Shown here one piece after another: positions 22,016-27,729 of a DNA stretch of 27,729 nucleotides. The position numbers and the translations under genes were made by a program. Every line of letters begins with the position of its first letter. Within the stretch, counting starts at the first letter, position 1. This DNA is from Clostridia bacterium. Its GTDB lineage: Bacteria > Bacillota_A > Clostridia > Christensenellales > Aristaeellaceae. The notes beneath the pieces were generated by a model. It had not been told where the DNA came from and did no database searches. It worked only from the letters and a program-made list of their open reading frames with translations. The DNA is taken from assembly GCA_017430945.1 (NCBI GenBank), contig JAFRMB010000133.1:1-27729 (forward strand), in the 5' to 3' direction.

Positions 22016-25000
22016 ATGCTGTCCAAAATCTCGGTCAAAAAACCCTATACGGTCATCGTGGGCATCATACTCGCGCTGGTGCTGGGCTATATCTCCTTCC
22101 AGCACATGACCACGGACCTGCTGCCCAGCATGAACCTGCCCTATGTGGTGGTATATACCCCCTACCCGGGCGCGACGCCGGAGCAGGCCGAAAACGAGAT
22201 CACCCGGCCCATGGAGGCGGCCTTCGCCACGCTGACGGACGTCAAGAAGATCACCTCCCGGTCCAGGGACAACGTTTCTGTGGTCATCATGCAGTTCAAC
22301 GACGGCGCGAACATGGACACTGCGCTCATCGAGATCTCCTCGCGGCTCGATCAGCTCAAAGGGTCGTTCGACGACGACGTAGGCAGTCCCGTGGCGATGA
22401 AGCTGAACCCCGACATGCTGCCGGTGACGATCCTGTCCGTCACGCGGGACGATATGGATCTGCTCGGGCTGTCCGACTATGTGAACGACAAACTGGTGCC
22501 CGCCTTCGAATCGCTCAACGGCGTCGCCTCCGCGACGGCCTCCGGCGTCATCGAGCAGGAGCTCGACGTGACCATCGAACAGAGCCGCATCGACGTACTG
22601 AACTCCGCGATCCTGAAGGACCTGGACAAAAAGCTCTCCAAGGTGGAGCGTCAGCTCAACGAGGGGCAAAGCCAGCTCTCCGAGGGCCGCAGACAGCTGG
22701 CCGTCGCCAGGGGCATGGCTTATTCCCGCCTCAATCAGGTGAAAAAAGCGCTCAAGGACGGTGAGAAACACCTCGGCCCCGCCGTACAGGCCCTCATCCA
22801 GCAGCGGGACGACCTGGTCAGCCAGCGCGACAGCCTGGCCGCCGCCGCCGAAAAGATGGCGCAGGCGATGGATCTCTCCGACGATGACAGGGCCGCCATA
22901 CTCGAGGCCGCCGCTGCGTTGGACGCCGCCCGGCAGAGGAAGGCCGACCTGGAGCGGCAGCTGGCCGCGATACAGAGCGGCGAAGACCCCGATCTGTCCG
23001 ACCAGCTGCTCGAGCTCCGGTCCCAGCGCGACGAACTGATCGGCCGGCGCAAAGCGCTCGAGGATTACATCGGCGACCTGCGCCTCAATGACGAGAGCGC
23101 GCTCCAAAGGGATGCCGATGCCCTGTCGGCTGAGATCGTATCGACCCACACACAGCGCGACGATGCGCAGAAGGCGCTGGACGACCTGATGCGGCAGCGC
23201 GATGCGCTGATGCAGGAAGTGGACGACCTGACCGCGCGGCTGGCGGCGCTCTCCGGGTCTTCCCCGGATCCCGATCCGGACGATCCCGGCGGCGACGGAA
23301 CGCCCGATCCGGACGATCCCGACGACACGGACGGTCAGGACGGCACCGGCGGCCAGGACGGGTCCGGCGATCCGGACGGCAACGGCAGCCAGGAAGACTC
23401 CGGCGGTCAGGACGGCTCCGATGGTCAGGACGGCTCCGATGGTCAGGACGGCTCCGATGGTCAGGACGGCTCCGATGGTCAGGACGGCTCCGATGGTCAG
23501 GACGGCTCCGGCGGCGACAGCGGCGGCGATCCGGACGACCAGAGCGATACCGGCGCCAACGGCCAAAGCGGGCAGGACGGCGGCGGCGACAACCAGGACG
23601 GCTCCGGCGCTGATGGCGGCGGCTCCGATCCGGCCGACGGCACCGGGTCCGACAGCTCCGGCGGCGATCCGACCGTCCCGGGCGACGGCTCTGGCGACGG
23701 CCACGGCGGCAGCAGCTCCGACAGCGGCAGCCCGGATGCCTCCGCTTCTTCGGGAGGCTCCGGCGATCCTTCCGGCGGCAGCGCCGGTCCCTCCGGCAGC
23801 TCCGACGACTCCGGCACTTCCGGCGGCGCTGACGCTTCCTCCGGCGGCTCCGGGTCGTCCGGCGGCTCTGACTCCTCAGGCAGCTCCGGTTCATCCGGCG
23901 GCCCCGGTTCTTCCGGCGACTCCGATTCTTCCGGCAACGGCTCCTCCGGCGGCTCCGGCTCCTCCGGCAGTTCCGGCTCCTCCGGCAGCAGCTCCGGCTC
24001 CTCCGGCAGCGACTCCGGCTCCTCCGGCAGCAGTTCCGGCTCTTCCGGCGACTCCGGTTCTTCCGGCAGCAGCTCCGGCTCCTCCGGCAGCAGTTCCGGC
24101 TCTTCCGGCGACTCCGGCTCCTCCGGCAGCGACTCCGGCTCCTCAGGCGGCTCCGGCTCCTCAGGCAGCAGCTCCGGCTCCTCAGGCAGCAGCTCCGGCT
24201 CTTCAGGCGGCTCAGGCTCTTCAGGCGGCTCAGGCTCTTCAGGCGGCTCAGGCTCCTCAGGCGGCTCCGGCTCCTCAGGCAGCGCGTCAGACAGCGTGTC
24301 CGTCATGAACAGGTTGGGCGTCGCCTGGGCGGAGGAGGCCACGGCCGAGTCTCTGCAGGCGCAGCTCAGCGCCGCCCGCGGCCAGCTGGCGGAGCTGAAT
24401 CGCCAGATCACCGAGCAGAAGGCGGAGGTCAACGGACTCGATGCCCGCCTCTCCGATCTGAACAACAGCTACGCCGCAAAGCTCGCGGCGCTGCAGGTGT
24501 TGCGGGATGAGAACGAGAACATCGAGGCGCGCATCTCCGATGCGGAGGCGCAGATCTCCCAGCTGAGCGGGCGCATCGATGCGCTGGAGAGTTCCATCGC
24601 CCTGCTCAGCGGCCAGATGGGCCAGTCCGGCGATGCCGTCGCAGATGAGCTGTCCCGGCAGATCGCCGAGCTGGATCAGCAGATCCGGGCGCTCGAGGCC
24701 TCCGGCGCCGGCCAGACGGCAGCGCTCATCAGCGACCCCAAGGCGCTCAAAGCGCAGTACGCCCAGGCCCAGGCAGGCCTCAAGCAGATGGACGCCGGCA
24801 TCGCTGAGCTCGACAGCATGATCGACAAGCTGAACCAGGGCATCATCCCCGCCGGCTATATCGACGGCATCAAGAAGGACACGAAGCTCTCCGACGCCAA
24901 GAAGGCCCTGGAGGACGCCGAGTCCAAGATGGGCGGCGCCTTCGCCAAGGCGCAAAAGGCGCTGGACGACGCTGCGGCGAAGCTCGCCAAGGCCCGCAGG

Positions 25001-27729
25001 GAATTCAACGACAAGCGTGACGAGGCCTTTGAAAATGCCGGACTGGACGGCGTGATCACCGTGCAGATGGTGTCGGGCATCATCGGCGCGCAGAACCTGT
25101 CCATGCCCGCGGGCTATGTGAAGGATGCGTCTGAGGACCGCGTGCTGGTGCGCGTGGGCGACAAGTTCACGGCCGCCGCACAGCTCAAGCGCATGAAGCT
25201 GTTCGAGCTGGATCTGGACACCATCGACGAAGTGCGCCTGTCCGACGTGGCGCGGGTCGAGCTGACCGACGACCGCGAAGACGTCTTCACCAAGCTGAAC
25301 GCACAGGACGGCATACTGCTGTCGCTGGACAAGCAGTCCACTTACTCCACCGCCGACGTGGCGGACACCATCATGGTCCGCGCGAAGCAGCTGCAGGCAG
25401 AGGATCCCGCGCTGCACATCGTGGACCTCATGAACCAGGGCGAATACATCGACATCGTCGTGGATTCCGTGCTCGGCAACCTGCTCTACGGCGGCGCGCT
25501 GGCCATACTCGTACTGCTGCTGTTCCTGCTGGACTGGCGGCCGACGCTGACCGTGGCCTTCTCGATCCCCATCAGCGTGGTCATCGCCTTCGTGTGCATG
25601 TACTTCTCGGGCATCACGCTGAACGTGCTGTCGCTGTCCGGCCTGAGCCTCGGCATCGGCATGCTGGTGGACAACTCCATCGTATCGGTGGAGAACGTCT
25701 ACCGTCTGCACGGCGAGGAGAAGCTGCCGCTGCTGCGCGCGTGCGTTGAGGGCGTGAGGTCGGTCTCCGGCGCGCTGTTCTCATCTACGCTGACCACGAT
25801 CTGCGTGTTCCTGCCCATCGTGTTCGTGCAGGGCATGGCCCGCGACCTGTTCGCGGACATGGGCCTGACCATCGCCTTCTCGCTGCTCGCCAGTCTCTTC
25901 GTCGCCATGACCGTGGTGCCGATGATGACCTCGTATCTGATGCGGCGCTCAAAGCCCCGGAAGATGCGCCTGTTTGCGCACATACAGGCGGGCTACACCG
26001 CGCTGCTGCGCGGCGCGCTGCGCGTCAAGCCCCTGGTGCTGGTCGCGGCGCTGGCGCTGCTGGCCTTCTCGGGACTTCAGGTCTCGAAGATGGCCATCTC
26101 GTTCATGCCGGAGGTCAATTCCCGCCAGATGAGCGCGACGCTGACGCCGGATACCGCGCTGTCCGATCGCGATCAAAAGGCGCAGGCCTCGGCCATCATG
26201 ACCGACATGCTGGCGCTGGAGGGCATCGGATCCATCGGCCTTATGAACGGCTCAGGCTCCGTCATGGCCTCCGACGGAAACTTTTCCTATTACATCATCG
26301 TCGACGAATCCGCCGGCCGTAAAAACAGGGACATCGCCGCCGATATCGAGGCGATCGGCGACAGATACGGCGCCGATCTCAGCGCACAGGCCAGCACCAT
26401 GGACATCTCCATGCTCACGGGCTCCGGCATCTCCGTCGAGATCACCGGCGACGACATCGAGACCCTGCAGTCCATCGCGCTGGACGTGGCGCAGCTGGCC
26501 CGCGACACCGAGGGCATCACCGACGTCAGCGACGGCCTCGAGGACGCCGTGCCCGAGCTGCGCATCGTAGTGGACAAGGAGAAGGCCATCGACCAGGGCC
26601 TGACCACCGGCCAGGTCTACCAGTTCATCGCCCAGAAGCTCATGGAAAAGGTGGAGATCGGCAAGATCACGCTGGACGGCAAGGAGATGTCCATCCAGAT
26701 GATCGAGGGCCGCGACATCGGGCTGCGCCCCGAGGAGATCCAGGACCTGGAGATCGAGGTGGACAACGAGGCGGAGAACAAGCTGGTGCGCATCGGCGAC
26801 ATCTCGGAGCTCCGGGACACCGCCAGCCTCGCGACCATCAACCGCGCCTCCCAGCGCCGGATGGTCACCGTGAGCTTCGCCGTACAGGACGGCTATGCCG
26901 CCAACCTTGTCAGCGACGACTTCAGGGCGAAGCTCGACGATTACGATCTCCCCGCGGGCTATTCCGCGGACCTGGCGGGCGAGAACGAGACCGTCATGGG
27001 CATCATGGAGGACCTCATGTGGATGATCCTGGTGGCCGTGCTGCTCATCTTCCTCATCATGGTGGCGCAGTTCCAGTCCTTCAAGTCGCCGATCATCGTC
27101 ATGTTCACGATCCCGCTGGCCTTCACGGGCGGCCTGCTGGCGCTGCTGATCACCGGCATGGATCTGTCCATCGTGGCCATGCTGGGCTTCCTGGTGCTCT
27201 CGGGCGTGGTGGTCAACAACGGCATCGTGTTCATCGACTGCGTCAACCAGCTGCGCATCGGCGGTATGCAGAAGCGCGCCGCGCTGATCGAAGCCGGCCG
27301 GCAGCGCCTGCGCCCGATCCTGATGACCGCGCTGACGACCATCCTCGGCATGTCCACGATGGCGCTCGGCCACGGCACCGGCGCTGAGATGATGCAGCCC
27401 ATGGCCGTCGTGTCCATCGGCGATCTGACCTATGCCACGCTGATGACGCTGTTCGTGGTGCCCGTGCTCTACGACCTGTTCAACGGCCGGGAGATGAAGG
27501 CGCGCGAGATCCAGATGATCCGCGAAGCCGCCGGCATGAACGGCGACGAGATCCTGGACGCGCCGGCCGTACCGGACGCTCCCGCGCCCTCGGCGGGACC
27601 CGAAGACGCCCCCGCGCCCTCGACCATCGTGCGGCCCGCCGCCGACGCGCCCGAGCGCCCCTCCACCGTCATCCCCGAGCGCCATGCCGGCACGCCGGCA
27701 CACCCGGCCCCCTCTGCGGAGCCGGCCCC
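22016..27729 (+). CDS. RND-family exporter with a giant coiled-coil/low-complexity insertion (C-terminus outside the window)
   Basis: The frame is open from the ATG at 22016 (GGAGG 7 bases upstream) to the window end: at least 1904 codons, against roughly 1050 for a usual RND pump. TM1 is about residues 11-29. The first pore-domain part (LLPSMNLPYVVVYTPYPGA; ATLTDVKKITSRSRDN) is normal up to residue 199. Residues about 200-1008 are an insert: coiled coil (about 200-413), Gly/Ser/Asp linker (414-762), coiled coil (about 773-1007). The RND sequence then resumes exactly (ITVQMVSGIIGAQNLSMPAGY). The membrane domain has GIGMLVDNSIVSVENV (Asp1219, relay position), and the second half ends with LSGVVVNNGIVFIDCVNQLR. 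The tail from about 27500 is Pro/Ala-rich. Family knowledge: trimeric proton-driven export of lipids, drugs or surfactants. No adaptor gene is visible upstream. No frameshift was found at the points checked. Confidence 0.93.
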   Translation, partial: MLSKISVKKPYTVIVGIILALVLGYISFQHMTTDLLPSMNLPYVVVYTPYPGATPEQAENEITRPMEAAFATLTDVKKITSRSRDNVSVVIMQFNDGANMDTALIEISSRLDQLKGSFDDDVGSPVAMKLNPDMLPVTILSVTRDDMDLLGLSDYVNDKLVPAFESLNGVASATASGVIEQELDVTIEQSRIDVLNSAILKDLDKKLSKVERQLNEGQSQLSEGRRQLAVARGMAYSRLNQVKKALKDGEKHLGPAVQALIQQRDDLVSQRDSLAAAAEKMAQAMDLSDDDRAAILEAAAALDAARQRKADLERQLAAIQSGEDPDLSDQLLELRSQRDELIGRRKALEDYIGDLRLNDESALQRDADALSAEIVSTHTQRDDAQKALDDLMRQRDALMQEVDDLTARLAALSGSSPDPDPDDPGGDGTPDPDDPDDTDGQDGTGGQDGSGDPDGNGSQEDSGGQDGSDGQDGSDGQDGSDGQDGSDGQDGSDGQDGSGGDSGGDPDDQSDTGANGQSGQDGGGDNQDGSGADGGGSDPADGTGSDSSGGDPTVPGDGSGDGHGGSSSDSGSPDASASSGGSGDPSGGSAGPSGSSDDSGTSGGADASSGGSGSSGGSDSSGSSGSSGGPGSSGDSDSSGNGSSGGSGSSGSSGSSGSSSGSSGSDSGSSGSSSGSSGDSGSSGSSSGSSGSSSGSSGDSGSSGSDSGSSGGSGSSGSSSGSSGSSSGSSGGSGSSGGSGSSGGSGSSGGSGSSGSASDSVSVMNRLGVAWAEEATAESLQAQLSAARGQLAELNRQITEQKAEVNGLDARLSDLNNSYAAKLAALQVLRDENENIEARISDAEAQISQLSGRIDALESSIALLSGQMGQSGDAVADELSRQIAELDQQIRALEASGAGQTAALISDPKALKAQYAQAQAGLKQMDAGIAELDSMIDKLNQGIIPAGYIDGIKKDTKLSDAKKALEDAESKMGGAFAKAQKALDDAAAKLAKARREFNDKRDEAFENAGLDGVITVQMVSGIIGAQNLSMPAGYVKDASEDRVLVRVGDKFTAAAQLKRMKLFELDLDTIDEVRLSDVARVELTDDREDVFTKLNAQDGILLSLDKQSTYSTADVADTIMVRAKQLQAEDPALHIVDLMNQGEYIDIVVDSVLGNLLYGGALAILVLLLFLLDWRPTLTVAFSIPISVVIAFVCMYFSGITLNVLSLSGLSLGIGMLVDNSIVSVENVYRLHGEEKLPLLRACVEGVRSVSGALFSSTLTTICVFLPIVFVQGMARDLFADMGLTIAFSLLASLFVAMTVVPMMTSYLMRRSKPRKMRLFAHIQAGYTALLRGALRVKPLVLVAALALLAFSGLQVSKMAISFMPEVNSRQMSATLTPDTALSDRDQKAQASAIMTDMLALEGIGSIGLMNGSGSVMASDGNFSYYIIVDESAGRKNRDIAADIEAIGDRYGADLSAQASTMDISMLTGSGISVEITGDDIETLQSIALDVAQLARDTEGITDVSDGLEDAVPELRIVVDKEKAIDQGLTTGQVYQFIAQKLMEKVEIGKITLDGKEMSIQMIEGRDIGLRPEEIQDLEIEVDNEAENKLVRIGDISELRDTASLATINRASQRRMVTVSFAVQDGYAANLVSDDFRAKLDDYDLPAGYSADLAGENETVMGIMEDLMWMILVAVLLIFLIMVAQFQSFKSPIIVMFTIPLAFTGGLLALLITGMDLSIVAMLGFLVLSGVVVNNGIVFIDCVNQLRIGGMQKRAALIEAGRQRLRPILMTALTTILGMSTMALGHGTGAEMMQPMAVVSIGDLTYATLMTLFVVPVLYDLFNGREMKAREIQMIREAAGMNGDEILDAPAVPDAPAPSAGPEDAPAPSTIVRPAADAPERPSTVIPERHAGTPAHPAPSAEPA
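22613..23257 (+). other. RND insert, first coiled-coil arm
   Basis: Encodes residues about 200-413, heptad-like and rich in Leu, Gln, Asp, Glu, Arg and Ala (for example KKLSKVERQLNEGQSQLSEG, QQRDDLVSQRDSLAAAAEKM, TQRDDAQKALDDLMRQRDAL). There are brief breaks at GMAYSRLN and IQSGEDPD. At 0.15 nm per residue a continuous helix of this length would be about 30 nm long. Confidence 0.8.
23258..24304 (+). repeat. RND insert, Gly/Ser/Asp low-complexity linker
   Basis: Encodes residues about 415-763. The first part is Asp/Gly/Pro-rich (DPDPDDPGGDG). The centre carries GQDGSD repeats. The last 180 or so residues are almost pure Gly and Ser in GSSGS-type units. The DNA is an imperfect array of GGC, TCC and AGC codons and shows only this frame as meaningful; long frames on the other strand are by-products of the repeat. 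Confidence 0.9.
23405..23512 (+). repeat. Perfect 18-base tandem repeat, six units
   Basis: The unit GGTCAGGACGGCTCCGAT occurs five times without change and a sixth time with its last codon altered (GAT to GGC). It is in frame with the exporter and encodes Gly-Gln-Asp-Gly-Ser-Asp, so Gly occupies every third position. Confidence 0.97.
24332..25036 (+). other. RND insert, second coiled-coil arm
   Basis: Encodes residues about 773-1007 (for example SLQAQLSAARGQLAELNRQI, NIEARISDAEAQISQLSGRI, KALEDAESKMGGAFAKAQKA). Breaks are seen near SGAGQTA and IIPAGYIDGIKKD. Its length is close to that of the first arm, which fits an antiparallel hairpin with the low-complexity linker at the tip. Confidence 0.8.

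Follow-up and report, generated by a model that had tools for sequence, protein, structure and literature searches.

The 27,729-nt stretch of Clostridia bacterium DNA analysed here (GenBank assembly GCA_017430945.1, contig JAFRMB010000133.1, positions 1 to 27,729; hereafter the window) encodes at its 3′ end a resistance-nodulation-division (RND) permease with a very long insert in its first periplasmic loop. This insert is probably a built-in, length-constrained hairpin that substitutes in cis for the adaptor hairpin in an AcrB-type RND exporter of monoderm Clostridia. The open reading frame (ORF), located at 22016-27727 on the forward strand like all features below, starts with ATG and runs for 1904 residues in a single frame with no stop codon before the window ends, so that the C-terminus lies beyond the window. 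The Pfam family PF00873 matches the ORF in two stretches (642.7 bits with a cut-off of 28; best stretch, residues 1014-1822), and the gap between them is the ~810-residue insert, residues 200-1009 or positions 22613-25042, which is where a previous sequence-only reading of this DNA had placed it. That reading had also raised a frame break as a possible trivial cause. Such an artefact is unlikely because all 118 homologs with both flanks carry an insert of at least 508 and at most 809 residues at the identical point (120 listed of 7049; two of the 120 lack the first flank and were unscored). The AcrB fold was recovered by structure comparison, and the VIA and Foldseek lists were full of RND pumps; no coiled-coil match was found among the VIA and Foldseek matches listed, which is uninformative as RND pumps filled the lists.

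In an alignment with E. coli AcrB, the insertion point lies between residues ~199 and 203, where the first helix of the N-terminal docking subdomain (DN) ends; this is the subdomain named by the sequence-only reading. The insert is preceded by the first part of the RND core (residues 1-199, positions 22016-22612), which comprises transmembrane helix TM1 (10-30), PN1 and the start of PN2 and DN, and followed by the remainder (residues 1010-1904, positions 25043-27727), which comprises the rest of DN and PN2, TM2 onward, the second periplasmic loop and a C-terminal tail. In an AlphaFold2 (AF2) model of a relative, the DN helix 189-203 is the fourth helix of the first periplasmic loop, and by our own count it would correspond to Nα4. 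In AcrAB, Nα4 and the base of β-hairpin 1 form site 1 for the adaptor β-barrel (PMC6975555). With this mapping, the hairpin would spring from the adaptor docking region of the export funnel. The Clostridial exporter thus resembles AcrAB-TolC in its pump core and fold, with the AcrA barrel docking on the same DN region if our helix mapping holds (PMC6975555), but differs in that its hairpin is in cis (three per trimer, if it is a trimer) and has no lipoyl/HlyD domain. No HlyD or Biotin_lipoyl family occurs among the 12 Pfam matches of the window protein at E≤1, and the insert pump is thus not an adaptor fusion. Matches of the arms to SMC, Rad50, ATG16 and similar Pfam or NCBIfam families were set aside as generic coiled-coil similarity.

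The genes adjoining the pumps differ from the AcrAB-TolC arrangement as well. All 22 insert-free Clostridial pumps examined (20 chosen by us from the listed matches in the class, plus L024 and L025) have an HlyD adaptor gene next to them, directly upstream in 21 cases and downstream in one (L073). The adaptor hidden Markov model (HMM) was trained on the upstream neighbours of 21 of the 22 pumps and necessarily matches them. Independent confirmation comes from Pfam, which detects HlyD_3 in 21 of the 22 genes directly upstream, and the downstream L073 adaptor was identified by the HMM alone. In contrast, the HMM found no adaptor among the genes adjoining 39 insert-type pumps, a search confined to these neighbours. 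At least 1.5 kb is present on both sides of 30 of these loci, and nine have less than 1.5 kb on one side. The 39 exclude L010 (contig end), the duplicates L016, L017, L020, L023 and L057, and six loci missing the first part of the pump (L006, L008, L018, L019, L021 and L022). The sole HMM match among the insert loci (L031, E 1.9e-4) was the RND protein itself. The accompanying Pfam scan covered 119 of the 134 neighbours of insert-type loci, represented by the best 25 of 163 families, and the HMM covers adaptors possibly hidden from it. No adaptor gene lies upstream of the window pump, this being the only side visible in the window. Omp85 was found in none of 19 insert-type genomes as opposed to 7 of 14 named control genomes. 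The sequence-only reading had assumed a single-membrane host lacking the adaptor; these counts support the first assumption and, for the genes beside the pumps, the second.

Both arms of the insert have a helical periodicity. The hydrophobic periodicity is 3.54 in the N-arm (residues 200-414, positions 22613-23257; power 3.02, with 1.20 as the 95% level of shuffled sequences) and 3.56 in the C-arm (residues 777-1007, positions 24344-25036; power 2.33, shuffled level 1.11). An S/G/D-rich linker (residues 415-773, positions 23258-24334) lies between them, in line with the order of coiled coil, low-complexity linker and coiled coil read earlier from the sequence. The AF2 model of the window protein, covering residues 1-1190, predicts helices up to 285 and at 289-320, 327-357 and 360-413 in the N-arm, a disordered linker (pLDDT <50), and helices at 777-830, 836-869, 872-895, 898-905, 908-940 and 958-1007 in the C-arm, which is interrupted by a conserved, non-helical loop of 17 residues (941-957, positions 24836-24886, containing IIPAGYIDGI). 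For P0216, a mid-size relative of 1190 residues, AF2 predicts an RND fold in which only three residues separate helices 205-284 and 288-371, i.e., an unbroken two-helix hairpin. The same hairpin was independently recovered by mean-field coupling analysis of 119 mid-size sequences (effective number of sequences, Meff, 84), in which its antidiagonals 570-576 ranked top of 147 (z up to 4.06, standard deviation (sd) 1.4). In the mid-size helices, a single face is conserved and bears Leu and Ala/Gly positions. This pattern fits two closely packed antiparallel helices and is compatible with a barrel without demonstrating one.

The arms are matched and constrained in length. By the linker-scoring cut, 157 of 159 long-type rows were kept (those dropped for a weak linker score include L106 and P0019), and the 5-95% range over them is 213-216 residues for the N-arm and 229-275 for the C-arm. 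The linker varies from 52 to 348 residues over the long-type rows and differs in composition. The lengths of the two arms correlate at 0.70 in the 157 rows and at 0.99 in 13 genome-derived rows, and both values depend largely on three short-armed members (L107, L109 and L111), in which the arms are shortened together to 133-148 and 162-173 residues. A crude helix mask, which ended the arm at a loop near residue 325 and for this reason gave a correlation of -0.04 (159 rows), was discarded. In the window, the N-arm helices (200-413) span 214 residues and the C-arm 231, or 214 after subtraction of the 17-residue loop. Each residue in a helix adds 0.1485 nm, which gives a rod of ~32 nm in the window and ~38 nm in L106 if straight; the periplasmic part of AcrB adds ~7 nm (40 + 30 Å, PMC8277102).

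The window linker of ~360 residues contains 125 S, 115 G, 56 D and only one K/R. It is encoded by 18- and 21-base tandem repeats (23330-23514 and 23791-24283), and its length may therefore vary between strains. At its border with the C-arm lies a conserved AxA-[DE]-[DEG]-type motif (AWAEE, residues 770-774, positions 24323-24337), matched in 155 of 161 long-type rows when scored within a 57-residue stretch, a few of the matches lying elsewhere in the stretch, with 0.095 expected from the arms; its sequence is reminiscent of a cleavage site for signal peptidase or of a helix cap. L106 (genome G436) has no low-complexity linker, and its insert of ~510-525 residues reads as coiled coil throughout, with ~255 residues per arm. 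An Asp-Pro-Asn stretch (467-477) adjoins its midpoint at 466, and Gly/Ser motifs recur in the two arms at similar distances from the base, the breaks being picked by eye.

The sequence-only reading had proposed a hairpin of roughly 30 nm. Helical arms in the window, the hairpin in a mid-size relative and ~214 residues available for pairing over ~32 nm are all in its favor, and the arms are predicted as extended helices; a straight rod is likely in the window itself, where the coevolution test is weak. The inter-arm couplings computed for the window from 143 of 150 rows (Meff 36) are strongest at antidiagonal 1196, which ranks first of 378 (z 4.24, sd 1.28). Several observations weigh against a long hairpin that replaces the adaptor. 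The AF2 confidence for the window is low (mean pLDDT 59, pTM 0.31). The window coevolution is weak, with unrelated antidiagonals such as 1107 near the best (z 3.48), the expected pairing at the base leaves no signal (1208, z 0.02; 1191, 0.72), and in the distal block antidiagonal 1108 (3.34) exceeds 1196 (3.06). A weak signal (573-582, z 2.0-2.8, sd 1.03) corresponds to a fold-back at residue 287. The mid-size hairpin has no clear second hydrophobic stripe for a barrel. Finally, members with inserts of 25-76 residues (8 rows) also lack adaptors beside the pump, so that adaptor loss does not require a long hairpin and may have preceded it.

The fold-back signal invites a different shape. With turns in the N-arm at 286-288 and in the C-arm at ~896-907, the insert would collapse into a compact four-helix bundle measuring ~13-19 nm, in place of the 32 nm rod. 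The helix break at 286-288 (positions 22871-22879) is aligned with the hairpin tip of the mid-size relatives, as such a bundle would have it. However, the segments past the joint (~125 and ~119 residues) exceed the segment below it (~86), and those of L106 would overrun the base by ~60 residues, presumably into the membrane. Moreover, the helix breaks predicted for the window lie ~87, 124 and 159 residues above the base in the N-arm and, with the 17-residue loop left out of the count, ~84-95, 121 and 158 in the C-arm, so that they would line up in a straight rod; leaving out the loop was our choice. We therefore consider the bundle quite improbable and a straight rod of ~32 nm likely in the window, where distal pairing of the arms is suggested mainly by model confidence and length matching.

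The insert is a graded trait of a clade within Clostridia. We sampled 391 genomes from the class of the genome carrying locus L007, scoring at most two candidates per genome, and found a PF00873 match over the cut-off in 174. From the listed matches, 31 beginning at model position 190-206 were picked, of which 30 were new and the other (G001) was that of L007 itself. Over these and the loci of the close relatives, inserts at the same site measure 25-51, 76, 185-228 or 253-326 residues, and those of the window type 567-767. Short inserts consist of proline-rich or simple helical loops, and those of middle length resemble coiled-coil hairpins. In a core tree of 71 rows from which the insert columns were excluded, all 47 rows with an insert group together (100*), and the 14 with a long insert make up a clade of their own (100*) nested among the hairpin pumps; this was a quick tree without a mixture model and with long-branch warnings. 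Within the L007 family, PF00873 matches occur in 130 of 200 genomes and exceed the cut-off in 64, many of the matches being short and to other RND-type proteins. Of the 25 strongest matches (E ≤5e-148), 23 start at model position 198-203, and the remaining two are an insert-free pump (G503) and a partial one (G466). Frames in this family reach 2538 residues. Mid-size members are present in Soehngenia, Keratinibaculum, Alkalibacter and Wansuia, and the close relatives of the window protein come from metagenome-assembled genomes, some from the gut of sheep, goat and roe deer, and from Candidatus Faecivicinus.

Pumps outside this clade were compared. The PDB chains measure 1031-1069 residues (60 listed of 83), i.e., they are without such an insert. 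SwrC of Bacillus subtilis has ~1065 residues and would thus have no long insert. It resembles the Clostridial pumps in being a Gram-positive RND exporter, of the amphiphile surfactin (PMC12096827). No description of the layout in Clostridia was found in the titles and abstract openings of the open-licence papers listed by the literature searches. The sequence-only reading knew of no described system with this exact layout. The graded series shows that the layout is not isolated, and it has a mechanistic precedent, the coiled-coil tube of Mycobacterium tuberculosis MmpL5 (PMC12501195). MmpL5 of the MmpS5L5 system, a trimeric RND exporter of the HAE-2 type, carries an antiparallel coiled-coil hairpin of 196 residues in its periplasmic domain PD2, modelled as a six-helix barrel of ~13 nm, and deletion of the coiled coil abolishes efflux (PMC12501195). 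A coiled-coil hairpin insert is likewise found in P0216 and the mid-size family and, by prediction, in the window. The Clostridial insert, however, occupies DN, within the first periplasmic loop of an AcrB-type pump, and not PD2, which belongs to the second; its arms are about twice as long with a disordered tip, and its hosts are monoderms, whereas MmpL5 works with an MmpS partner in a mycomembrane envelope. MmpL5 is the closest precedent for a pump with a built-in hairpin, and because the loop and the RND branch are different, the likeness is probably convergent.

We propose that a proton-driven AcrB-type exporter would use its DN hairpin to do in cis what the adaptor α-hairpin does in trans. 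An ancestral hairpin of ~85-100 residues per arm would have been extended at its tip until ~214 residues were paired (~32 nm), with the disordered, acidic S/G-rich loop capping it. If the pump is a trimer like AcrB, three straight hairpins would rise from the funnel through much of the wall and expose the loop at the cell surface. As a hypothesis, such a putative wall-spanning conduit is a good one. The least certain part of the model is the closure of the three hairpins into a six-helix conduit, as they might instead serve as open guides or tethers. The fullest version, a clade of one-gene envelope-spanning exporters in which three DN hairpins form a six-helix conduit of 13-38 nm that replaces adaptor and outer channel, acts as a wall-length ruler, bears a variable surface loop and arose independently of the MmpL5 tube, is one that we put forward tentatively and with some doubt.

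Alternatively, the hairpins might serve as a tether or surface probe that anchors or positions the pump or carries the linker to the surface, with substrates leaving the funnel freely. The tip linkers are highly variable and disordered like surface loops, the second stripe expected of a barrel is missing, and the elongated EsaA ectodomain is able to span peptidoglycan (PMC9600267). This type VIIb secretion protein and its counterpart YueB are, like the exporter, Firmicutes membrane proteins, but not RND pumps, and profiles of the EsaA/YueB or YhgE/Pip families were absent from the 12 Pfam matches and the best 25 of 29 NCBIfam matches of the window protein. Against a tether, the hairpin grows out of the adaptor docking region of the export funnel with no adaptor gene nearby, the length of its arms is held within tighter limits than a tether would seem to need, and MmpL5 loses efflux with its coiled coil (PMC12501195). 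A mere tether thus appears unlikely. Under the adaptor substitute favored here, one protein could do the work of pump plus adaptor in single-membrane gut Clostridia, and, if true, the MmpL5-type solution would have had a second, independent origin in the AcrB branch. A clade with graded built-in hairpins and no adjoining adaptor gene makes the role of such hairpins testable: whether they are needed for efflux, whether their length follows wall thickness and whether they form tubes.

The energy coupling of the pumps was compared with AcrB at Asp407, Asp408, Lys940, Arg971 and Thr978, which we take to be its proton-relay residues. The window protein has D, N, N, R and T at these positions. The equivalents of Asp407, Arg971 and Thr978 are retained in 47 of 47 insert-type rows, with Asn in place of Asp408 and Lys940; Asn also occupies 408 and 940 in 17 and 18, respectively, of 23 insert-free Clostridial pumps.

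The genes adjoining insert-type pumps bear on a further explanation, in which the hairpins act as a folding cage or chaperone for a peptide or lipopeptide substrate outside the membrane. Such a role was suggested for Gram-positive adaptors with very large hairpins, which are hard to rationalise as mere bridges to an outer channel (PMC4446572). However, the best 25 of 163 neighbour families include no peptide-synthesis family, and the commonest neighbours are TetR genes (21 of 119 scanned), which makes the cage very improbable. A TetR-family gene starts within ~30 bases after several insert-type pumps (Pfam-confirmed for L041, L033, L013 and L026), and genes of the same size lie beside other insert-type pumps; pump and TetR likely constitute a self-regulated operon. 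In the window, the upstream neighbour of the pump encodes a C_GCAxxG_C_C family protein (PF09719, 21181-21855) and no adaptor. Together with VanW, ScpA, LytR-CpsA-Psr, SecD, RelA/SpoT, RecJ and cyclophilin, it makes up a neighbourhood that in our judgement resembles an ordinary Clostridial genome. Two kinds of other long RND frames were noted. Several long-type relatives (P0098, P0105 and P0100) have long low-complexity C-terminal tails, e.g., PQGYGNAQPGN repeats in P0098 (2451 residues). An insert-free RND frame of 1447 residues at L056:401-4741 (G256), with ~400 extra residues, adjoins an adaptor-like frame of 126 residues at the contig end.
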